The translations under genes and the position numbers were made by a program. A stretch of DNA of 36,072 bases from Elusimicrobiaceae bacterium (lineage in GTDB: Bacteria > Elusimicrobiota > Elusimicrobia > Elusimicrobiales > Elusimicrobiaceae). The notes below the pieces were generated by a model. The model saw only the letters and a program-made list of their open reading frames with translations, did not search any database and was not told where the DNA came from. This document shows positions 819-19,612 of this stretch, piece after piece (position 1 is the stretch's first letter; each line of letters starts with the position of its first letter). Where the stretch lies: contig JAGCMD010000055.1 in the NCBI GenBank assembly GCA_017646765.1, forward strand, positions 1 to 36,072, read 5' to 3'.

Positions 819-3800
819 TTCGGTGTAGGCTGGGCTACCGGTGCGGGAGCAACCGCCGGGGCTTGTACTGCCGGTTGAACTTCCACGGTGACATGTTGAG
901 TAGTGTGTGAATGTACCGTATTTACTTTATCTACAAATGCCTGCGAGCCTTCCATTACCAAAGCGGGCTTAACGCCGTGTTGGTAATTGTCCTTAATGCG
1001 GAGCGTATTTTGCACTATTTCAAGTACCGGGTTTTCCTGTCCGGAAACTGATTTAAGCCACGCATGGTGTTTGGCGTTGTCCGAAATACGCGGCTCGCCT
1101 ACTTGCCAAGCCTTTTCCAATAGCGTCATACCGATTTGGGAACCAAACCCGGCCGCTAAGCGAAGTGCATATTTAAAATCATAATGGCCGCCTTTACTTA
1201 AAGTAATACCTTGGAGTTCCGGGTCGGCCTCTTTAAAGTTGGCAATCGGCGGTACCAGCCCCGTGTTTAAACAGCGTACCGCAATTACGTCTTCCAGGCC
1301 GGCGCCCATGGAGTGCCCGGTAAAACCTTTTGTGTTACTGACAATAACTTTACTGACGTTTTCGCCAAAAGTTTCCTTCAAGGCGTAAGACTCCGCACTG
1401 GCCGAACCGCCGCGTGCCGGCGTATATGTTTCGTGCGAGATAAACACCAACTGCTTGGCGATATCGGCCCGGTTCAAACCGTGCTCTTTTTCCGCCTTGG
1501 TGACTAAGCGGTTCATGACTTGGGCAATGTGGTTTACATCAATGCGTGTAACGTGAAAACCGCTGTTGGCAATTTCGGTAGACAGCAGTTTAGCCAGCGG
1601 CTTCATCCCGCGTTTGACTACTTCGCTTTCTTCTTCTACAACTAAAGAGACGGCCCCCATCCCCACAATCATCCCATTGCGGCGGCGGTCAAACGGCAAG
1701 GCCGCTTTGGTAACGTCGCCTTCGGTAGTGGCTGCGCCGGATGCTAAGAACGCCGTTAAAATCCACTCGGACACATTGTCATTTGTAATGTCGTCCGCAC
1801 CGATAACAATGACACGTTTGCAGCGGCCCAGCCGTATCCAATCTTGCGCTACAGCCACCGCTTGCGCCGTAGACGCACAGGCAGAACTCATGGCCGTAGC
1901 CGGCCCGCGGGCGCGGATCCATTGGCAGAAATGCGCGTGCGCAATAATAATAGTTTTTAAGATAAATTCTGACGTAAACGCCGCCGGTTCAATTTCTTTA
2001 TCTTTGAAATTTTGCTGATACCAAGTTTCAATTTCCGCCTTCAGCGCCGGGTCGGCAATTTGGGAAATAAATTTATCGCAGAACGCCCGGACTTCTTTGG
2101 CAGTTTTGTTATTGAGCAGCCCGGTTACGCGCTTGGTTAAATCGCCCATCATGCTGTTAGCCACCGGGAAAGCTGAGGTAAAAATTACACCTGTTTCGTC
2201 AATCATTTCAGCCGGCAAACCCCAACGGTCCGGCAAGTAACCGCCCGTAGAAGTGGGTTTATAATATAGGACGAGCGGGATACCTGCATCTTTTAAAGCC
2301 AGCATACCGGCTGCAATCGCAAGTTGGAAACTGCGGTCCATGGAGCGCACCCATTTAGCCGGTAAGCCAAACTCTTTCTCCAAATCAAACGCACCGCCCT
2401 TGGCCGATAACTTAATAGCTTGTGAGGCGGAAGTTAAACGCTCAATGCGGTGATTTCCGTCCGGCGATTTAATCACAAATTCTACATGTTTATCAATCTG
2501 TTTTTGTTGTACGTCAGACGATACCGGTTCAATCATATTGCGCCCGGATAAAATTTCATCTAAAATACCCTCGCGGAAAATTTTATCCCAGCTGCCCGGG
2601 CCGCCCGCAGCGATACCGCTAATAACAACTGATTTATGCAAGTTTTCTTCTTCGCTAACGGACGACGAAGCTTGGGGCTGAGCCGGTGTGGAAACCCCTT
2701 GCACTTTTTCCGCTTCCGTGGCGTTCCCGGTTACCCAACTGACGAAAGCCGGGTTGTAGGTTCCGTTATCGCCAAACATATCCGTTCCTTGCCAATCAAT
2801 GTGAATGCCGGAAGAAATTAAGTTGGCAAATAAATCGTTAAATTCCACAATGCCGCCTTTTTTGGGGTGGTTGGACGCTAATACTTTAATATCCTTTTTA
2901 TCAGACAAGGTATTGGAAGCAAGCGCCGAAAGCACACGCTTCGGGCCGCACTCTACAAAAAGCCGTACGCCGGAATCATAGGTGGTTTTCAGCTGTGTAA
3001 TCCACTCTACCGAGTGAGAAATTTGCGTAACCATTAGGTCTTTAATCTTTTCCGGGTCATTGGGGTAGAACTCCGCAGTTACGTTAGTGGTAATGGGCAT
3101 CTGCGGCGGTTTAACCGTTAACGTATTTAAAAAGGCCCGGTATTGCGGCATAGCCGGTTTGATAATATCGGAGTGGAAAGCGTGAGAAACCGGGATTTGT
3201 ACTGCCTGGATACCCATATCGGTAAACATCTTAATGGCGTCATCAATAGATTTAGAAGCCCCGGCAATAACGGTTTGCGTCGGGCAGTTTTTGTTGGCTA
3301 CCGCCACATACCCCGCCACACGGCCAAGTTCGGGCTCTACCCGTTCCACCGGCGCGGCAATGGAAGCCATCTTGCCGTTGTCTTCTACGCGGATTTCGCT
3401 CATTACTTTGCCGCGTGTACAAACGGCTTTTAACCCGTTTTCAAAATCAAAAATACCGGCGGCAATCGCAGCGGCATATTCCCCCAAGCTGTGTCCCATC
3501 ACAACGTCCGGCTTAATGCCGAAAGACGACAGCAACCGCATCATAGCAATGTCCGCCGTGAGTACTGCCGGCTGGGTCATTTCCGTCCGTTTGATAGAAG
3601 CTTCGCGCTCTACCAATTCTTCTTTGGTTTCGCCGGGTTTGCTCCATAGGGTTTCGGTTAAGGTTTGGCCGATAATATCCGTAAGCAACCGGTCGGCTTC
3701 GTCAAACGTATCTTGCACAATTTTATATTTGGAGGCCAAATCCTTCATCATGTCCACATATTGCGAACCTTGGCCGGGGAACATAAAGCAAACTTTCGGT

Positions 3801-5617
3801 TTAATTTCGGTAGGCGTAAAAGGATAAATACCTTTCATGCGCAAATACAAAGATTCTTGTTCCCACACATCTTGAGAAGAAGCAATCTTTTTGAAAAATT
3901 CAATTTTCTCTTTAAGTTTATCCGGGTTTTCTACGTTAATGGTAACCGCAAATTTGCCCGGTTTAGCAATATGGTTTTGATAAGAAATACTGGGCAGATA
4001 CGTCGGGTCGCATTGAACGGCAACCAAGGCTTTATCTAACACACTAAAAAGTTCTTGCTTGGTGGCTGCGGAGAAAGTAAGCACATCACTTTGAATTTTT
4101 TCTCCCGGCACGTGCAAAATATACGAATTTTTCATTTTTACAGACTCCTGTTTTGGGGTTACAGTTTCGGCACAAGAAGCAACCTGTACCGTTTCTTTAT
4201 GAAGTAAATGTTCGTTCATTTCTTCCATAGCTACGTGGAAGTTTGTGCCGCCAAAACCAAAGGCAGACACGTTGGCGCGGCGGATTTTTCCCTCCGGCCA
4301 CGCTTGCGCTTGTGTAATCACGCGGAAGGGGCTCTTGGCCCAATCTACTGCCGGGTTAGGCGTAACAAAATTGACAGACGGCGGCAATACTTTGTGGTGT
4401 AAAGCCAGTGCCGTTTTGATTAAGGACGCAATACCAGCCGCCGCTTTAGCGTGCCCGATTTGGCTTTTTACACTGCCTAACCCAATCGTACCCGGTTTGG
4501 CGTACGGCGCAAAAAGCTCATTTAACGCCGTTAGCTCCACCGCATCACCTACGCGCGTGCTGGTGCCGTGTGCTTCAATGAGTCCCACATCACCGGGCGT
4601 GTAATCTAATTGTTCAAAAGTTTTTTCTACGGCAATTTTCTGCCCTTTGGGGTTGGGCGCGGTAATGCCTTTACCTTTCCCGTCAGACGACGCGCCCACG
4701 GCGCGTATGACCGCGTATACGCGGTCGCCGTCTTTGACGGCGTCGGACAAGCGTTTCAAAATGACCATACCCGCACCTTCGGCCATCACAAAGCCGTCGG
4801 CTTTGGCATCAAACGGGCACGAGCCGTTTTCGGACAGCGCCCCGATTTTGCAAAACTTGATATACGAGGCCGGTGCCATCATCTGGTCCACACCGCCAAC
4901 CAAGGCCATATCAAAGTTCCCCATGCGAAGCCCATTAATAGCTTGGTCCACGGCGGCTAACGACGTAGCACACGCGGCATCTACCGTAAAGTTCGTTCCG
5001 TGCAAGTCAAACACGTTGGCTACGCGTCCCGCTATTACGTTAGCCAACTCTCCCGGCATGGAGTCTTCCGTTACCGGCATAAAGTGGGCACGCACGCCTT
5101 CTTCCATTTCGTTAATGAGCTGCTCTCCCGCGGCAGGGGCTAAAGATTGATACGTAGGCGTTTTTTTCAAAATTTCGTAATAGACAGGGCGATTTAAACG
5201 CAAGTTGGACTTATCGTTTTTCATACCGCCCATGGAGTTGCCGATAATAACGGCCGTGCGGTTGCGGTCAAATTCTTTTTTATCATACCCCGCATCTTCC
5301 AATGCCATATTGGCGGTTTCTATAGCCAAGTGTTGGATGGTATCCATTTGCTTGGCAATTTGCGGCGGGATGCGGTATTTTAACGGATTAAATTTAAAGG
5401 AGCTTGGGATGAAACCGCCGATTTTAGAGTAGAGTTTATCTTCGGCTTTGTGGTCCGGGCTGTAGTAGAGTTTCCAGTCCCAGTACGACGCCGGCACTTC
5501 GGTAATACAATATTTTCCGGCTTGGATATTATTCCAAAATTCATCTTTGGTAAGCGCACCGGGCATAATCGCCCCGATACCTATAATAGCAATCGGTTCA
5601 AGATTTTTATTTGTCAT
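1..5617 (-). CDS. Large type I polyketide/fatty-acid synthase, KS-AT-KS-ACP(n), 3' part outside window
   Basis: The reading frame is open from ATG at 5617 to the window edge, giving at least 1872 residues with no stop. The start follows GGAG, 6 bases upstream. Domains: KS1 at about 6-465 with Cys216 (DAACATS), His350 (HGTST) and His389 (GHAKAAAG); acyltransferase at about 605-895 with FPGQGSQ, Ser710 in GHSLGEY and His815 in AFHS; KS2 at about 995-1500 with Cys1247 (SSACAST), His1395 (HETYTPA) and His1435 (TGHSMGAG); then Pro/Ala-rich linkers and ACP domains around 1640 and 1756, with a third beginning at about 1850. KS1 elongates acyl chains, AT loads extender units and ACPs normally carry intermediates. 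The architecture resembles the PfaA (PUFA synthase) / HglE (glycolipid) class. KR and DH domains probably lie beyond the edge, but that is inference. The product is unknown. Confidence 0.93.
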   Translation of the reverse strand, partial: MTNKNLEPIAIIGIGAIMPGALTKDEFWNNIQAGKYCITEVPASYWDWKLYYSPDHKAEDKLYSKIGGFIPSSFKFNPLKYRIPPQIAKQMDTIQHLAIETANMALEDAGYDKKEFDRNRTAVIIGNSMGGMKNDKSNLRLNRPVYYEILKKTPTYQSLAPAAGEQLINEMEEGVRAHFMPVTEDSMPGELANVIAGRVANVFDLHGTNFTVDAACATSLAAVDQAINGLRMGNFDMALVGGVDQMMAPASYIKFCKIGALSENGSCPFDAKADGFVMAEGAGMVILKRLSDAVKDGDRVYAVIRAVGASSDGKGKGITAPNPKGQKIAVEKTFEQLDYTPGDVGLIEAHGTSTRVGDAVELTALNELFAPYAKPGTIGLGSVKSQIGHAKAAAGIASLIKTALALHHKVLPPSVNFVTPNPAVDWAKSPFRVITQAQAWPEGKIRRANVSAFGFGGTNFHVAMEEMNEHLLHKETVQVASCAETVTPKQESVKMKNSYILHVPGEKIQSDVLTFSAATKQELFSVLDKALVAVQCDPTYLPSISYQNHIAKPGKFAVTINVENPDKLKEKIEFFKKIASSQDVWEQESLYLRMKGIYPFTPTEIKPKVCFMFPGQGSQYVDMMKDLASKYKIVQDTFDEADRLLTDIIGQTLTETLWSKPGETKEELVEREASIKRTEMTQPAVLTADIAMMRLLSSFGIKPDVVMGHSLGEYAAAIAAGIFDFENGLKAVCTRGKVMSEIRVEDNGKMASIAAPVERVEPELGRVAGYVAVANKNCPTQTVIAGASKSIDDAIKMFTDMGIQAVQIPVSHAFHSDIIKPAMPQYRAFLNTLTVKPPQMPITTNVTAEFYPNDPEKIKDLMVTQISHSVEWITQLKTTYDSGVRLFVECGPKRVLSALASNTLSDKKDIKVLASNHPKKGGIVEFNDLFANLISSGIHIDWQGTDMFGDNGTYNPAFVSWVTGNATEAEKVQGVSTPAQPQASSSVSEEENLHKSVVISGIAAGGPGSWDKIFREGILDEILSGRNMIEPVSSDVQQKQIDKHVEFVIKSPDGNHRIERLTSASQAIKLSAKGGAFDLEKEFGLPAKWVRSMDRSFQLAIAAGMLALKDAGIPLVLYYKPTSTGGYLPDRWGLPAEMIDETGVIFTSAFPVANSMMGDLTKRVTGLLNNKTAKEVRAFCDKFISQIADPALKAEIETWYQQNFKDKEIEPAAFTSEFILKTIIIAHAHFCQWIRARGPATAMSSACASTAQAVAVAQDWIRLGRCKRVIVIGADDITNDNVSEWILTAFLASGAATTEGDVTKAALPFDRRRNGMIVGMGAVSLVVEEESEVVKRGMKPLAKLLSTEIANSGFHVTRIDVNHIAQVMNRLVTKAEKEHGLNRADIAKQLVFISHETYTPARGGSASAESYALKETFGENVSKVIVSNTKGFTGHSMGAGLEDVIAVRCLNTGLVPPIANFKEADPELQGITLSKGGHYDFKYALRLAAGFGSQIGMTLLEKAWQVGEPRISDNAKHHAWLKSVSGQENPVLEIVQNTLRIKDNYQHGVKPALVMEGSQAFVDKVNTVHSHTTQHVTVEVQPAVQAPAVAPAPVAQPTPKALDEATVTKEIINMVSEKTGYPEDMLDLDLDMEADLGIDTVKQAELFAAMREHYGITAQQEGIQLKDYPTIRHCIKYVLTNAGGAPVQAAVAPVQTPVPAPTPAVTPAPVAQPAPKALDEATITREIVNMVSEKTGYPEDMLDLDLDMEADLGIDTVKQAELFAAMREHYGITAQQEGIQLKDYPTIRHCIKYVLTNAGGAPVQAAVAPVQTPAPAPTPAVTPAVTPVVAPAPVAQPAPAATPAVASAPKAAALDEATITREIVNMVSEKTG

Positions 5618-5639
5618 GGTGTCTCCTGTCCTTAAATCC

Positions 5640-5668
5640 TTTATAGATATATTTTATTAAATTAACAA
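5640..5668 (-). promoter_or_regulatory. Candidate promoter of the polyketide synthase gene
   Basis: On the minus strand, TTGTTA (5668-5663) is followed by a 17-base spacer and TATAAA (5645-5640), 22 bases before the ATG. The surrounding DNA is very AT-rich, so chance matches are likely. Confidence 0.35.
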
Positions 5669-5709
5669 AAGCAGAAACAAATTTAAATGCAATTTTTTGG
5701 TCCAAAGCC

Positions 5710-5739
5710 TTGACAAAAATTGATTAGTATTGTTAGATT
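5710..5739 (+). promoter_or_regulatory. Candidate promoter of a possible small RNA
   Basis: A perfect TTGACA (5710-5715) is followed by an 18-base spacer and TAGATT (5734-5739). It points away from the synthase gene, with no annotated plus-strand gene downstream, only the palindrome cluster at 5737-5830. The -10 match is moderate (4 of 6). Confidence 0.3.
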
Positions 5740-5745
5740 TTGCGC

Positions 5746-5830
5746 CCGCAAAATAGCTGTTTTGCAAAAATCCCGTCGGTTTTGCGTTTTTGATAAGCTT
5801 TCAGCCCTACGCAAAACAACCGGCTTTTTT
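5746..5830 (+). ncRNA. Possible small structured RNA (or cluster of palindromic protein-binding sites)
   Basis: The stretch contains the hairpin GCAAAA/TTTTGC (5748-5753 with 5760-5765). It ends in a stem GTTTTGCGT/ACGCAAAAC (5779-5787 with 5809-5817), extended by CG/CG across a bulge and followed by six T (5825-5830), as in an intrinsic terminator. A further perfect palindrome, ATTTTGCG-CC-CGCAAAAT, lies at 5737-5754. A TTGACA promoter-like element precedes it at the right distance. No open reading frame or known RNA family is recognised. An alternative reading is a multi-site operator with the TTTTGCG core. Outside this element and the synthase promoter, I see only the ferritin-gene stem-loop in the 5618-5946 gap. 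Confidence 0.3.
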
Positions 5831-5875
5831 AAATTATCCATATTTTTTAAGCTCTAATTAAAACCGCAGCCAAAC

Positions 5876-5932
5876 TTGCCAACCCGGCCAACAAACAGCC
5901 CCGGCCTACAACCCCGGGGCTGGCTTTGGCAA
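5876..5932 (-). terminator. Strong stem-loop after the ferritin-like gene
   Basis: A perfect 9-bp stem CAGCCCCGG/CCGGGGCTG (5896-5904 with 5914-5922) is enclosed by an outer stem TTGCCAA/TTGGCAA (5876-5882 with 5926-5932). It lies just downstream of the ferritin-like gene. There is no good U tract on the minus strand, so termination efficiency is uncertain. Confidence 0.45.
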
Positions 5933-5946
5933 ATTTTGAATTGATT

Positions 5947-6477
5947 TTATTTTTTCTTGCATTTGCAAGCACTGCCGGAAGACAACACGATTTGATAATC
6001 TTTTCCTATATCTTCCAGTTCCTGTTCATGCTCAATTTCATCCTGCAAAATCTGGCGAATAATATGAGCGGTAATCATATCCTTATTTAGCACATATTTA
6101 AGCAATTTATGATATACTTCAATAGCACAGCGTTCTCCTTGCAAATTCTGCTGCAACAAAGTAGCCGCATCGCTGTTTTTCGGCGCGAGGTATCCGCAAG
6201 TGCTTTCTTTGTACCAGTCCTCCGGTCTCAAAACCGGCGTTCCACCCAATTCAATAATGCGTTTGGACAATTTTTTGGCATGCTCCAATTCTTCGTTGGC
6301 ATGCTCTTCCAATTCCGGCCGCAGCACCGGGGCCATAATACCGCTGGCCACTTGCGCCCCCGCCCAGTATTGATAATAAGCCAACCACTCATCACTAAAC
6401 GCCTTGTTAAGCAAGCGGATCACTTCCTCCACGTTCAAGCCGGCTTGTTCTACAATTTGTCTTCCGATCATACCCAT
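5947..6477 (-). CDS. Ferritin-like diiron protein (Dps-like/bacterioferritin-related)
   Basis: The 176-residue protein is a four-helix ferritin-like fold, probably a cytosolic iron-oxidising or peroxide-detoxifying protein. Diiron ligands can be placed as Glu30 (DEWLAYYQY), Glu63 and His66 (EELEH), Glu115 (GERC), Glu147 and His150 (DEIEH), which is two ExxH motifs plus two single Glu. Cys94 and Cys117 lie in the second half, and the C-terminus is a Cys/Lys-rich tail (CKCKKK) that could bind metal. The ATG is preceded by AGGGGG at 8 bases. It is monocistronic between tRNA-Pro on the other strand and the synthase gene. The length fits DPSL-type proteins rather than rubrerythrin, since no rubredoxin domain is present. 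Confidence 0.85.
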   Translation of the reverse strand: MGMIGRQIVEQAGLNVEEVIRLLNKAFSDEWLAYYQYWAGAQVASGIMAPVLRPELEEHANEELEHAKKLSKRIIELGGTPVLRPEDWYKESTCGYLAPKNSDAATLLQQNLQGERCAIEVYHKLLKYVLNKDMITAHIIRQILQDEIEHEQELEDIGKDYQIVLSSGSACKCKKK

Positions 6478-6623
6478 ACTAATTACCCCCTAATAACATT
6501 TTCCTTTACGCAACCCCCAAAGGGGCGGCAAGGGATAGCATATCAATTTGCAAAAAAACGCTAAAGGTCAAAAAAGGGTTAGAATCCGCCGCAAATCACC
6601 TCTTACAAAGGGTCAAACAGCTC

Positions 6624-6652
6624 TTTTCAAGCAGCTCAAAAACTAGTAATAT
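6624..6652 (+). promoter_or_regulatory. Candidate promoter of tRNA-Pro and the downstream peptidase gene
   Basis: TTTTCA (6624-6629), a 17-base spacer and TAATAT (6647-6652) end 8 bases before the tRNA. The -35 match is weak. It would drive a joint transcript of the tRNA and the coding genes downstream. Confidence 0.4.
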
Positions 6653-6660
6653 AAGAACGA

Positions 6661-6733
6661 CGGGGTATGGCTCAAGTGGTAGAGCGCCCGCTTTGGGAGC
6701 GGGAGGTTCCCGGTTCAAGTCCGGGTGCCCCGA
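6661..6733 (+). tRNA. tRNA-Pro(UGG)
   Basis: A full cloverleaf can be drawn. The acceptor is CGGGGTA with TGCCCCG, the D arm runs GCTC to GAGC, and the anticodon stem CCCGC/GCGGG has loop TTTGGGA (anticodon TGG). The T arm is CCCGG-TTCAAGT-CCGGG, with discriminator base A at 6733. CCA is not encoded. The ATG of the next gene is only 7 bases downstream, so 3' processing would release an mRNA with an almost absent leader. Confidence 0.95.
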
Positions 6734-6740
6734 TTTTTCT

Positions 6741-7694
6741 ATGACCCATACCAATTCTTCCGACGTTTTTAACAAGATACATACATCAGCCGACGTGGAG
6801 CACATGACGTTGGCGGAGGGGTTTCGGGCAGCCGTTTCATACCCGCAGAAAGCTCCCTTTGCGTTTACTTCGCTGGTGGCATCGGCCAATTTAGGTGTTT
6901 TTTTCTCCGGCGGCGTCATGTTAGAGGTGCAGGTCAGCAACGGCCTGTTGTGGAGCCCTTTTTTTAAATTGGGGCTTGTGATGGATTCCTTCCAACAAAG
7001 TTTCCCGGGGCAAACCAACCACTGGGGCGAAGTGAAAGTGGACGAATTGGTGCTAAGAAAGCCGGCGCGTTATTACCGATTGCGGGTGCGTATGGACGGG
7101 AAAGTACCGCTTTTATCGTTTGGAGTAAGCGGCGCCAATACCACTGCCCAATATAATGAAAAAACCGCTTCCCGCTTGCCGGACGGCTCCTTTGAAATGG
7201 ATGTTTTCCCCATTTCCCAAAAAGAACAAATTACCCCGGATAATATGCGTATTTGCAGTCCGGTGGCCCTGTGTATGGCCCTTAATACGTTGGGAAAACC
7301 CATTGTACTGAGCCAAGTTTTACAAAATGTTTACGACCCGGCCAGCGACATCTTCGGCAACTGGTTTTTTAATACGGCGTATGCGTCGCAGCAAGGGTTA
7401 GATGTCCATTTTTGGCGGTTTAGCTCACTGGAAGAACTGGCAGATTTTTGTACGCCTAAGGCACTCGTAGCCGCAAGCATTGCCTACGGCGAAAACGAAC
7501 TCCCCGGCGCAGCACAACCGCAAACTCCGGGGCATTTTGTACTTATCCGCGGTTGGAAAGACGGAAAAATTTTAGTGGCCGATCCGGCGGCCGAAACGAC
7601 AGCCGGAGTCTTGCGGGCCTATGACGCTCAACCTTTTGCACAAGCGTGGCTCAAAAATAAACAAGGGGCCGCATATATTTTGAGGAAACGATGA
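6741..7694 (+). CDS. C39-like cysteine peptidase family protein
   Basis: The 317-residue protein has a C-terminal papain-fold peptidase C39-like domain (about 165-317). A plausible triad is Cys172 (RICSPVALCMAL), His265 (PGHFVLIRGW) and Asp281 (VADPAA). The usual CGP signature reads CSP here. The N-terminal half is a beta-rich region that I do not recognise. No signal peptide or membrane segment is visible, so the location is unclear. The ATG at 6741 lies 7 bases after tRNA-Pro and lacks a Shine-Dalgarno sequence. ATG 6804, with GGAG 3 bases before it, is an alternative start. The stop overlaps the next gene by 4 bases (ATGA), so this peptidase and the peptide-binding lipoprotein are translationally coupled. 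Confidence 0.8.
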   Translation: MTHTNSSDVFNKIHTSADVEHMTLAEGFRAAVSYPQKAPFAFTSLVASANLGVFFSGGVMLEVQVSNGLLWSPFFKLGLVMDSFQQSFPGQTNHWGEVKVDELVLRKPARYYRLRVRMDGKVPLLSFGVSGANTTAQYNEKTASRLPDGSFEMDVFPISQKEQITPDNMRICSPVALCMALNTLGKPIVLSQVLQNVYDPASDIFGNWFFNTAYASQQGLDVHFWRFSSLEELADFCTPKALVAASIAYGENELPGAAQPQTPGHFVLIRGWKDGKILVADPAAETTAGVLRAYDAQPFAQAWLKNKQGAAYILRKR

Positions 7695-9421
7695 AAAAAT
7701 TATTATTTTTACTAAGTGTACTTTTGTTAATCGGCGGATGCACCAAACAGACCGCCCCGGACACACTCCTTGTGGCCCATAAAGGGGAGATGGAATCCTT
7801 GGACCCGGTTTATTCTTATGACGGCATCACGCACGGTATGCTGATTAACGTCTACGACACACTGCTTAAATTTAACGGCAGTTCACTGACGGAATTATTG
7901 CCTTCGCTTTCCACCCAAGTGCCTACCAAAGAAAACGGGCTGATTTCTAAAGACGGACGCACCTACACGTTCCCTATCCGCCAAGGTGTTAAATTTCACG
8001 ACGGACGCGAATTAACCCCCGAAGATGTACGCTACTCCATTTTGCGTTTTTTGCTGTCCGATATTTCCGGCGGGCCGTCCAGTTTGCTGTTAGAACCGAT
8101 TTTAGGCGTCTCTTCCACCCGTAATGAAAAAGGCGAGATTGTAGTAGATTATAAAGAGGCCGCAAATGCCGTGCGCGTAGAAGGGGATAAGGTGGTGATT
8201 ACGTTAAAACGTCCGTTTGCGCCGTTTTTATATATTTTGGCACGCTGGGGATACGTAATGAGCAAGTCTTGGGCCGTAGAACAAGGCGCCTGGGACGGCA
8301 CTGAAGCCACTTGGAAAAAGTTCAACAACTTTGCCAAAGAGGCTACCCCCTTATTTAAAATCACCAACGGTACCGGGCCGTTTAAAATTGCCCGCTGGGA
8401 TATTGCCGCCAAGCGTTTGACCTTAGCTGCAAACGAAGATTATTTTGCGGGAGCTCCGGCACTTAAAACAATTTTAATGATGACGGTAGACGAACCCAGT
8501 ACCCTGCGCTTAATGTTGGAATCGGGGGATGCGGATGTAGCGGAATTATCCCCAAAATTTATTTCGCAACTTAAAGGCAGTTCTACCATTGACCTATATG
8601 ATAATTTACCGCGTCTGCGCACGGACCCGGTCATTTTCTTCACACGCCATATCAATATGGACGCCAACCCGGACGTCGGCTCCGGCAAGTTAGACGGGCA
8701 AGGCATCCCTTCCGATTTCTTTGCCGATAAAGATTTACGCAAAGGGTTTATCTATGCTTTTGACTACGAAGCATTTTTAAACGAGTCTATGGAGGGCCGC
8801 GCGGAAATGGCCATCGGCCCGGCTCCAGCGGGACTTGTGAAATACGATAAAGATTTCAAACATTATGCGTTTGATTTAAAAAAGGCCGAAGAACATTTCA
8901 AAAAAGCCTGGGGCGGACAAGTATGGGAGAAAGGTTTTAAGTTTACCATTACCTATAATACCGGCGGTGAGATGCGTCAAATTGCCAGCGAAATTTTAAA
9001 ACGTAACGTGGAAAAATTAAACCCCAAATTTCAGATTGATTTACGCGGAGTCACTTGGCCGGCCTTCTTAGAAAAAACCACCCGCCGCCAAATGCCCATG
9101 TGGGCGCGCGGTTGGGTAGCCGATTATGCCGACGCGCATAACTTCTACTTTCCGTTCTTACACAGCCACGGGCGGTATGCTATTTCACAAGGCTATAACA
9201 ACCCGCAAGCTGATGCGCTGATTGAAAAAGCTGTCGTAGAAACTGACGGCAATAAACGCAACGCACTATACAAACGTGTGCACAATTTGGCTTACGAAGA
9301 TGCTATGCAAATCTACACGGTCCACCCCACGGGGTTATGGGCTATGAACAAATCGGTAAAAGGGTTTGTGGATAATCCGGTTTATATGGGTATTTATTTC
9401 TACCCCATGTATAAGGAATAA
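7691..9421 (+). CDS. Oligopeptide ABC transporter substrate-binding lipoprotein (SBP_bac_5 family)
   Basis: The 576-residue protein starts with a lipoprotein signal (MKKLLFLLSV, lipobox LIGGC, Cys17), so it is probably membrane-anchored and faces the periplasm. The mature part follows the DppA/OppA family: an early SLDPVYSYDG segment, YTFPIRQGVKFHDGRELTPEDVRYS split across the usual SBP_bac_5 signature, and a C-terminal peptide-binding lobe. It would capture peptides or nickel-like ligands for an ABC importer. No permease or ATPase gene is near, so it is an orphan binding protein or shares a transporter elsewhere. GAGG lies 5 bases before the ATG, which overlaps the stop of the C39-like gene. 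Confidence 0.9.
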   Translation: MKKLLFLLSVLLLIGGCTKQTAPDTLLVAHKGEMESLDPVYSYDGITHGMLINVYDTLLKFNGSSLTELLPSLSTQVPTKENGLISKDGRTYTFPIRQGVKFHDGRELTPEDVRYSILRFLLSDISGGPSSLLLEPILGVSSTRNEKGEIVVDYKEAANAVRVEGDKVVITLKRPFAPFLYILARWGYVMSKSWAVEQGAWDGTEATWKKFNNFAKEATPLFKITNGTGPFKIARWDIAAKRLTLAANEDYFAGAPALKTILMMTVDEPSTLRLMLESGDADVAELSPKFISQLKGSSTIDLYDNLPRLRTDPVIFFTRHINMDANPDVGSGKLDGQGIPSDFFADKDLRKGFIYAFDYEAFLNESMEGRAEMAIGPAPAGLVKYDKDFKHYAFDLKKAEEHFKKAWGGQVWEKGFKFTITYNTGGEMRQIASEILKRNVEKLNPKFQIDLRGVTWPAFLEKTTRRQMPMWARGWVADYADAHNFYFPFLHSHGRYAISQGYNNPQADALIEKAVVETDGNKRNALYKRVHNLAYEDAMQIYTVHPTGLWAMNKSVKGFVDNPVYMGIYFYPMYKE

Positions 9422-18803: not shown

Positions 18804-18832
18804 AAATAAGAAAGAACCACCTCGTTTTTCCC

Positions 18833-19412
18833 AAATCCCTACGCGACAGGAAGCAGTTGGTATCGCTCCCTATCAGGGGATTTGCCTTCCGGTAAAATTC
18901 CTGACGGAATTTTCCTGCAGGCCGGGCTCGCGGTACTCGCCTTTGCCTATCGGCAAAACTCGTACAACGCTGCGGCTAGGGTTGGCAAGGTGCTCTTTTT
19001 GCCTTTGCGCCGCTGGACTTTTTAGGGTAGCGCGTAGTTTGTTTTGCGCGTGCCTAGTGAACTAGGTGCGCGCAAAAAAAGAAGTGATAGCCAAAAAGGA
19101 CGCGGCCCGCAGGGTTTAGCCGTTTTTGCTATCCGGCGTTGTTAAAAAAGCTTGTCTATGATTACATAGACTTCACTTTTTTGCCTAGCCGTTCTACGCA
19201 AAAACGGCTAAACGCAATAGAGCAAACAGAACACCTTGCCAACCCAAAATCCCGACGCGACAGGAAGCAGTTGGATTTGCCCTGCATAAATTTCCTGACG
19301 GAAATTTTGCCCGGGCCCGCCCTCGCGGTTTTTGCCTTGCGCCCTTCAGGCACAAACAAAAACATCGCTCCGGGCTTCAAATCCCGACGCGACAGGAAGC
19401 AGTTCCTGTCGC
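18833..19412. repeat. Intergenic hairpin-repeat cluster between fmt and tRNA-Ser
   Basis: Three copies of a roughly 26-base unit beginning AAATCCC and containing GCGACAGGAAGCAGTT start at 18833, 19247 and 19379. Copies 1 and 2 share about 100 bases of further patchy similarity. Hairpins: GCGACAGGAA-GCAG-TTCCTGTCGC is perfect in copy 3 (19389-19412); AAAATTCC-TGAC-GGAATTTT lies in copy 1 (18894-18913) and AAATTTCC-TGAC-GGAAATTT in copy 2 (19288-19307), keeping pairing through base changes on both arms. TTTGCC-TATC-GGCAAA lies at 18942-18957. An imperfect stem TTTTGCGCG...CGCGCAAAA spans 19042-19077. No credible protein gene is present. Confidence 0.8.
19115..19212. repeat. 15-bp perfect inverted repeat enclosing a hairpin
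   Basis: TTTAGCCGTTTTTGC (19115-19129) and its exact reverse complement (19198-19212) flank 68 bases. Inside lies GTCTATG-ATTA-CATAGAC (19154-19171). The size and form suggest a small palindromic mobile or structural element. No target-site duplication is evident. Confidence 0.65.
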
Positions 19413-19423
19413 TCCCTCCGTTA

Positions 19424-19459
19424 AATTTTAAGGGCCCCCTTACGGGAGCCCTTAAAATT
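19424..19459 (-). other. Long GNRA-capped hairpin in the tRNA-Ser 3' trailer
   Basis: Read on the tRNA strand, the RNA is AAUUUUAAGGGCUCCC, loop GUAA, then GGGGGCCCUUAAAAUU: a 16-bp stem with one U-G pair and a GNRA tetraloop, starting 4 bases after the tRNA. The plus strand has a C-A mismatch at the wobble position, so the fold favours the tRNA strand. No U tract follows. Confidence 0.7.
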
Positions 19460-19462
19460 CAA

Positions 19463-19547
19463 CGGAGAGGGAGGGATTTGAACCCTCGAAACCTTGCGGT
19501 TTACAGGTTTTCGAGACCTGCTGTCTCAACCACTCACACACCTCTCC
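19463..19547 (-). tRNA. tRNA-Ser(CGA)
   Basis: This is an 85-base class II tRNA on the minus strand. The acceptor is GGAGAGG with CCTCTCC, the discriminator is G, and the anticodon stem CAGGT/ACCTG has loop CTCGAAA (anticodon CGA). The long variable arm is built around AACCGCAAGGTT, and the T arm GAGGG-TTCAAAT-CCCTC follows. CCA is not encoded. A TATAAT at 19595-19590 (minus) 42 bases upstream may serve as its promoter. Cotranscription with the RDD-pilin gene upstream is also possible. Confidence 0.95.
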
Positions 19548-19612
19548 AATTATACTTGCGCCGAGTGGCTGGCCCAAATACCTATACCTATTATACTAAA
19601 TTTGCAGGCGGC

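Follow-up and report, generated by a model that had tools for sequence, protein, structure and literature searches.

Short, gene-free elements with tRNA-matched antisense segments at tRNA 3' ends in Elusimicrobiota: a putative kind of self-addressing mobile DNA

Introduction

What is the cluster of hairpin-forming repeats that separates a tRNA-Ser(CGA) gene from fmt in the genome of an Elusimicrobiaceae bacterium? The cluster lies within a stretch of 36,072 nucleotides (contig JAGCMD010000055.1 of assembly GCA_017646765.1, positions 1 to 36,072; ‘the window’ from here on) and, since tRNA-Ser and fmt are both encoded on the minus strand, sits downstream of the tRNA and upstream of fmt. A preliminary description of the window had pointed to compensatory base changes in the stems, and had suggested an undescribed REP-like or tRNA-derived intergenic family, or else a structured RNA read into fmt. 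The letters that it quoted are all present, with three copies of a 26-40 nt unit starting at 18832, 19246 and 19378. On balance we lean towards the view that the cluster belongs to a family of mobile DNA elements, short, without genes of their own and non-autonomous, which settle at tRNA 3' ends in Elusimicrobiota by the mechanism set out below.

Results and discussion

A composite unit recurs at the 3' ends of tRNA genes

Read along the strand of the tRNA, the element comprises in order the T-loop-to-acceptor strand of the tRNA gene, a palindrome (P1), an antisense copy of the acceptor strand (acc'), a hairpin (hp), an antisense copy of the T arm (T'), a body with two further hairpins (P3 and P4) and T2, in which the tRNA 3' end is copied once more; a further palindrome and hairpin may follow. 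The hp stem has 9-10 bp around a loop AA-CTGC-TT (invariant AACTGCTT), T' reaches up to T54 of the T arm, P4 is marked by a GTCA loop and a bulged A, and T2 starts from R57 of the T loop. P1 is usually terminator-like, and was found at most, not all, of the phylum loci. Thus an acc'-hp-T'-body unit stands between two copies of a tRNA 3' end, with acc' and T' antisense to that same tRNA, and with a body that is common to different tRNAs and species. Units measure 130-200 bp and contain no genes; arrays consist of one or more whole units. A second body type terminates in GACTTGTGGCC in place of the P4 form, and family f15 (loci L168, L169, L174 and L180) has AACGATTT as its hairpin loop (AATGATTT in L180) where other loci have AACTGCTT, and may lack P1; this lineage-specific loop could report on the partner protein.

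The genome that holds the window (1.35 Mb in 95 contigs), which the relatives of its fmt place in Elusimicrobiaceae, has 44 distinct tRNA genes as called by ARAGORN, all of which were examined; 13 of these carry a stem-AACTGCTT-stem hairpin less than 80 nt beyond their 3' end, and related DNA adjoins tRNA genes at all seven other loci fetched from this genome. The 26-base unit with which the preliminary description proposed to search is itself not dispersed (three copies in the window plus one with three mismatches), since each locus has its own stem and its own tRNA-like part; it is the loop and the structure that recur. A strict pattern matches 58 of 90 genomes of the family (reversed control, 0), whilst a covariance model (R1) matches 80 of the 90, in all six genera, with 19 matches in the window's own genome and 25 in genome G004. 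Across a sample of the phylum, R1 matches 114 of 294 genomes and 24 of 90 genera; families f15, f16, f21, f26 and f27 score strongly, and most scores in f2, a nearer family, are weaker. Infernal filters were strict in both scans, and at most about 35 (family) and about 10 (phylum) candidates per genome were scored. The idea of an undescribed, tRNA-linked element family has therefore held up well, with many further copies in genome and phylum alike and with stems that are conserved.

Linkage to tRNA genes extends to remote families, where a same-strand tRNA lies upstream at 27 of 30 loci. Among 166 distinct hairpins, 117 lie no more than 90 nt 3' of a tRNA gene (a set that excludes loci above 13.5 kb) and 29 more no more than 700 nt, with 20 lacking a tRNA in the available stretch; the share of elements beside tRNAs is biased upward except in the window's own genome, because most loci had been retrieved with element-like patterns or with R1. 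The element is present at 14 or more tRNA isotypes. The ten family genomes without an R1 match are also without a tRNA-linked hairpin, having five imperfect pattern matches only, away from tRNA 3' ends, so that hp and body are absent together; resident sites with the hairpin alone were accordingly rejected, none having been found in these ten body-free genomes. We also rejected the idea that widely spaced copies (in G108 and G116) form the ends of a larger autonomous element, as the four copies fetched each adjoin a tRNA of their own. Taken jointly, the existence of the element, its tRNA linkage, its antisense matching and its wide distribution are in our judgement very likely.

Carriage by phages or plasmids was rejected, since no matches were found in the plasmids or phages searched, and four viral scans returned one chance match in a phage open reading frame and one contig end judged to be host-like. 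The latter (L288; IMGVR_UViG_3300033463_005745, first 3.3 kb) is filed as viral and, judged by reading, bears a tRNA-element array together with Elusimicrobium-type housekeeping genes at the contig end, which is probably host DNA.

Antisense segments are fitted to the neighbouring tRNA

The AAATCCC start of the repeats, which had been likened to a T arm, is indeed a copy of the T arm of the neighbouring tRNA, and the same correspondence holds from locus to locus. Within the window's own genome, the sequence that follows the hairpin is antisense to the T arm of its own tRNA, with a summed match of 128 against 100.5 +/- 4.1 for shuffled partners (0/20000). For the 117 loci with a tRNA no more than 90 nt away, T' matches its own tRNA at a mean of 9.4 of 12 positions versus 7.7 when shuffled (z 18.4; 0/3000), and acc', taken as the 14 nt before hp, matches its own acceptor strand with a z of 15.4 (0/3000 shuffles), whereas swapped-segment controls give z values of 1.1 and 2.1. 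The T-arm parse behind these tests misplaced the TTC in one Thr tRNA and in some Ser tRNAs, so that the tests are conservative. After correction of the parse, T' is perfect over the seven nucleotides C56-C62 in 85 of the 117 loci.

The manner in which the remaining 32 loci deviate is informative. Twenty-four differ only by G.A at one position, either alone (7) or as a tandem G.A/A.G (GGACGAG/GGATGAG; 17), three combine the tandem G.A with one further mismatch, and five are otherwise different; in 14 out of 44 units, P3 has a related tandem G.A in the place of two Watson-Crick pairs. Since deviations in T' are mostly G.A, and a related tandem G.A occurs in P3 also, it appears that pairing with the tRNA, rather than copying alone, is kept.

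Stems covary with almost no G.T pairs

Compensatory change in the quoted stems, and the selection on or maintenance of pairing that was read from it, proved well founded. The stems AAAATTCC-TGAC-GGAATTTT (copy 1 region, 18894-18913) and AAATTTCC-TGAC-GGAAATTT (copy 2 region, 19288-19307) are both of the P4 type, and stems covary massively. In an alignment of 44 units with 27 pairs (A1; 44 of 49 units, omitting second copies at L081 and L144 as well as L101, L129 and L138, which are too long or incomplete), 97.2% of cells are paired and 207 two-sided changes stand against 4 one-sided ones, with shuffles and slid registers far lower. Folded as single-stranded DNA, 201 nt of the tRNA strand in the window (19290-19490, minus) reach -69.8 kcal/mol, compared with -32.3 +/- 3.6 for 200 dinucleotide shuffles (z -10.35; 0/200 as good).

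Is the acting form RNA or DNA? The 36 distinct hp stems hold 332 Watson-Crick and 4 G.T pairs (336 in total), and G.U/G.T makes up about 0.4% of element pairs versus 6.5% in same-genome tRNA acceptor stems (20 G.T among 308). In RNA, helices as variable as these normally go through G.U intermediates; massive covariation with almost no G.T hence favours folded DNA over RNA, and we consider folded DNA to be the somewhat likelier acting form, although correction of palindromes by template switching could contribute to the scarcity of G.T.

Selection for a structured RNA, such as an antisense partner or a trailer of the tRNA, with the repeats being tandem duplications only, would sit well with the deep covariation, the conserved loops, the bulged A and the tandem G.A, which would suit RNA motifs. 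Against it stand the near-absence of G.U, the terminator-like palindrome that intervenes between tRNA and hairpin at most loci, the lack of any sigma-70-like promoter in the window stretch, the patchy presence of the element (absent from 10 of 90 family genomes), and Rfam, which identifies only tRNA in the window and matches the element only below threshold and only at a lax setting. We regard such an RNA as unlikely. The more specific proposal of an RNA read into fmt fares no better, given that the element is found at 14 or more tRNA isotypes whatever gene follows.

One pair of loci in genome G005 (L274 and L280) shows P4 stems that differ wholesale (AAAATTCC/GGAATTTT versus CATTTTGC/GCGAAATG) in units otherwise near-identical over long stretches, as if the stems had been exchanged as modules.

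Occupied and empty sites, with junctions in hairpin loops

Orthologous sites with and without the element provide a comparative footprint of movement. At tRNA-Asn(GTT) in the window's own genome (G000), the series tRNA-P1-acc'-hp-T' is followed by the next gene (the empty site); the corresponding locus of G005 has the same series plus 130 bp (hairpin half, T', body, T2) joined at AACTGC^TT, and the downstream flanks are 81% identical over 395 nt. Between tRNA-Ser and fmt, the flanks of L067 (empty-like) and L075 (occupied) are likewise orthologous, and in L075 an 89-nt site with its start in the T loop is repeated. The tRNA-Ser array of G005 carries a Ser-type address, but its body, T2 and flank resemble those of a tRNA-Leu locus.

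Two junction points can be recognised. One is the AACTGC loop of hp: seven arrays (L003, L109, L111, L141, L191, L197 and L249) stop after the 5' arm plus AACTGC with unrelated DNA beyond, an end that is exact in three of the seven, where the next base is not T, and uncertain by two bases in the other four. Array ends were assigned by context, with L192 and L199 excluded as interrupted first copies; comparison hexamers gave 0-1 right-arm matches. T2 is moreover fused straight to a AACTGCTT-3' arm at four sites (L001, L220 and two in L247), and four chimeric hairpins (window copy 1, L113, L119 and L288) combine arms of two types. The second junction point is in the T loop, where it separates C56 from R57. 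As both points are hairpin loops, strand exchange in loops is suggested.

The window's own copies bear these traces. Copy 3 has the perfect stem GCGACAGGAA/TTCCTGTCGC (19389-19412), as previously described; the stems of the other copies, thought at that time to have decayed, have not done so in any simple sense. Copy 1 has intact arms which belong to different hairpin types (GCGATACC and CCTGTCGC), and copy 2 is without a 5' arm, since AACTGC follows immediately upon the body end CAAATCC.

Bodies, too, tell of both movement and descent. For 79 bodies from 33 genomes (those with a genome label, a tRNA and a GTCA hairpin), mean distance is 0.210 within one genome at different tRNAs (12 of 2000 label shuffles as low) and 0.206 at the same tRNA in different genomes (0/2000), as against 0.234 otherwise; spread within genomes and inheritance of loci thus both leave traces. 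Bodies only 2-4% apart occur at different tRNAs in different species, with differing stems and addresses (L004, G000, Leu, with L118, G032, Cys; L162, G016, Met, with L256, G028, Val), and the second body in the window is 87-95% identical to bodies elsewhere in its genome (contigs C24, C73, C33, C44 and C68).

Occupied and empty sites, AACTGC array ends and target duplications together indicate insertion or excision, probably with strand exchange in loops, and on these comparative footprints we think it likely that the element is mobile. The distribution of R1 scores, strong in remote families and mostly weak in the nearer f2, also speaks for mobility. A miniature inverted-repeat transposable element of a DDE transposon was rejected: a direct repeat of the tRNA 3' end is present at both element ends, but the site repeats run from the T loop to past the palindrome or hairpin with variable length (89 nt in L075), rather than forming a short target duplication of fixed length, and the body is closed only by the tRNA-specific T' and T2. 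Might the whole pattern instead be a mutational by-product, in which palindromes beside tRNA genes duplicate and correct one another by template switching, with no mobility at all? Perfect arms, tandem units and antisense to the neighbouring tRNA fit such a process. Against it speak the recurrence of one body, with its invariant loops, beside many tRNAs and in several families, the sharing of bodies by tRNAs that are not orthologous, the exact placement of hp between acc' and T', and the clean empty site; we hold this to be very improbable.

A proposed mechanism and the search for an enzyme

Synthesising these observations, we propose that the element acts as folded single-stranded DNA, in which hp, P3 and P4 would serve as putative protein-binding hairpins, and T' together with acc' would constitute an ‘address’, pairing with the target tRNA gene along its T-loop-to-acceptor strand. 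By virtue of this pairing each copy would fit one tRNA and leave that tRNA intact, and strand exchange in the loops (AACTGC^ and C56^R57), carried out by an enzyme acting in trans, would insert or excise units. A stricter version, a single-stranded form with 18-20 nt of bipartite tRNA antisense split by a hairpin, which would take a new address from its target every time it moves and undergo strand exchange in its hairpin loops through a host-encoded or other enzyme, is one that we put forward tentatively.

Several points weigh against the element being mobile DNA of this kind. Rewriting of the address at each move has no demonstrated mechanism; movement is inferred from comparative footprints, in genomes that are most if not all draft or metagenome assemblies, and the empty sites could be clean excisions; and conservation could stem from a host function. 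Nor did searches for PF01797 and PF00589 yield an enzyme. PF01797 (Y1 transposase) has 0 matches in the window's own genome, is not associated with the element (19/80 carriers versus 4/10 non-carriers), and is lacking in G004 despite its 25 R1 matches; RAYT or IS200 as the required enzyme was hence rejected. As to PF00589, the window's own genome has three proteins, whilst several element-rich carriers (G001, G032, G057 and G070, the last with 99% completeness and 7 R1 matches) have only two, which we read as putative XerC and XerD, the number expected; a dedicated tyrosine integrase is thus not needed for the element to be present.

These enzyme counts also bear on two rival mechanisms. A miniature integrative element of the tRNA type would be a circle of about 190 bp, with an attP that includes the tRNA 3' end, recombined in the T loop by a tyrosine integrase (host Xer, or that of other islands), its hairpins being accessory. 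The T-loop junction, the regenerated tRNA 3' end and the displaced copy beyond are as in tRNA islands, so far as the available part of PMC4383910 describes them, and the window's own genome does have one island integrase, in tRNA-Val. Such an element would leave the AACTGC junctions unexplained, and it fits poorly with the use of at least 14 isotypes, with bodies that cross between isotypes, with the carriers that have two PF00589 proteins only, and with the lack of a gene in any unit; we find it doubtful. To a REP-like or IS200/IS605-derived element, moved by RAYT or TnpA, we give the least credence of all: hairpins in putatively folded DNA and a guide-like segment 5' of the hairpin recall IS608 (PMC5934647, in the part available), but the distribution of PF01797 speaks against it, and with it against the REP/RAYT type of the preliminary description.

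The island integrase itself is encoded on contig C32 (L127, about 1000-8400), in a conventional integrative island which, by reading of its open reading frames, holds the integrase and restriction-modification-type genes. The island interrupts tRNA-Val(GAC) close to the anticodon and has restored the gene.

Comparison with known systems

How does the element relate to systems already described? Islands at tRNA genes likewise leave a restored tRNA and a displaced copy of its end (PMC4383910). They have lengths of kilobases and come with an integrase. The element is alike in its T-loop junction, regenerated tRNA and displaced 3' fragment past the insert; it differs in being 130-200 bp without integrase or any gene, in its numbers (up to 25 model matches per genome), and in its many isotypes, antisense address and hairpin-loop junctions. 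For IS608, of the IS200/IS605 group, a four-base guide 5' of a hairpin selects the target by pairing (PMC5934647, available part), and the likeness would extend to folded-DNA hairpins and to pairing of the guide with the cleavage or target site. Unlike that of IS608, the element's guide has about 7-10 nt plus an acceptor part, is fitted to each tRNA, and comes without a linked Y1 transposase or an open reading frame. REPs and REPINs with RAYT, and CGTC-tagged REPs without a known transposase, are likewise short, non-autonomous palindromic DNA with covarying stems, according to the accessible text of PMC3733652, in which ‘Elusimicrobi-’ does not occur. The element, by contrast, is strictly tRNA-linked, carries the antisense of its target, has a larger composite fold and shows no association with RAYT.

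Integron attC sites conserve structure rather than sequence, possess an extrahelical base and lie in growing cassette arrays. The element is likewise conserved in structure, with an extrahelical base and array growth; it differs in having no cassette reading frame, no identified IntI and a tRNA-specific pairing. The bridge RNA of IS110 has a bipartite guide flanking a hairpin, whereas both guide parts of the element pair with the same strand, the signature is DNA-like and no recombinase is known.

We found no description of such an element in the open-access literature (titles and abstract openings), and wherever a comparison with a known family was possible, that family departs from it in a defining feature. 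Its make-up suggests a hitherto undescribed kind of self-addressing mobile DNA. Few systems are known in which base pairing picks the target of mobile DNA; here, one body stands beside many tRNA genes with an antisense fitted to each, in most genomes of one family and scattered over the phylum. If the address is indeed used and rewritten, this would be a compact, naturally re-targeting, DNA-guided insertion system; if a host function accounts for it instead, it would be a hitherto unknown feature of tRNA loci.

The window cluster and other repeats nearby

Coordinates for the cluster are collected in Table 1. R1 matches the window at 19269-19411, and P1 is covered by an inverted repeat (19416-19439/19444-19467) of 92%.

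Table 1. Parts of the repeat cluster between tRNA-Ser(CGA) and fmt, in window coordinates
Feature	Position	Strand	Basis or remark
tRNA-Ser(CGA), target gene	19462..19548	-	Element matches its T-loop-to-3'-end TTCAAATCCC-TCCCTCTCCG, complement of ~19462-19482
P1, long A/T-G/C palindrome directly 3' of tRNA, terminator-like	19421..19461	-	Acceptor/antisense-acceptor pairing continues P1
acc', antisense copy of acceptor 3' strand	19413..19420	-	Acceptor-antisense match to own tRNA over 117 loci
hp, perfect hairpin GCGACAGG-AACTGCTT-CCTGTCGC, loop CTGC (intact; copy 3)	19389..19412	-	Inverted repeat
T', antisense copy of T-arm 3' half (GGGATTTGAA)	19376..19385	-	Own-tRNA match across loci
Body: P3 hairpin (~19326-19369) and P4 hairpin with invariant GTCA loop and bulged A	19280..19375	-	Alignment A1
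P4 hairpin of intact unit, AAATTTCC-GTCA-GGAAATTT plus bulged A	19287..19307	-	Inverted repeat, alignment A1
T2, second T-arm 3'-half copy (CAAATCC), right body end	19273..19279	-	
Copy 2: right hairpin half (AACTGCTT-CCTGTCGC-GTC-GGGATTTT) fused directly to T2	19246..19272	-	
267-bp insert, separate element, splits array	18979..19245	.	52-nt imperfect terminal inverted repeats
Second body, left part cut by 267-bp insert; P4 at 18894-18913	18885..18978	-	
T2 copy closing second body	18878..18884	-	
Copy 1: chimeric hairpin, arms of two hairpin types around AACTGCTT	18843..18866	-	
T' of copy 1, distal array end before fmt	18832..18839	-	

The 267-bp insert has ends of the form GGGTTGGCAAGGTG..., and among 288 loci the same ends were seen only at the tRNA-Ser locus L059/L247.

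Other repeats also occur beside tRNA genes. Among the matches listed, a second and distinct family of tRNA-tail duplications, made of direct repeats of the tRNA 3' end and a structured stretch with a GGTCGGATACCTCCGCGC-like core, is found at L014 (tRNA-Phe), L049 (tRNA-Arg CCT) and both L047 and L058 (tRNA-Ser GGA), and further tail copies with other bodies are found at L017 (tRNA-Glu TTC) and L048 (tRNA-Ala). Another intergenic repeat, of the CGGGAGATGCCGG...CCGGCATGAC type, lies behind arrays and tRNAs at L274, L280, L045 and L047, again among the matches listed.
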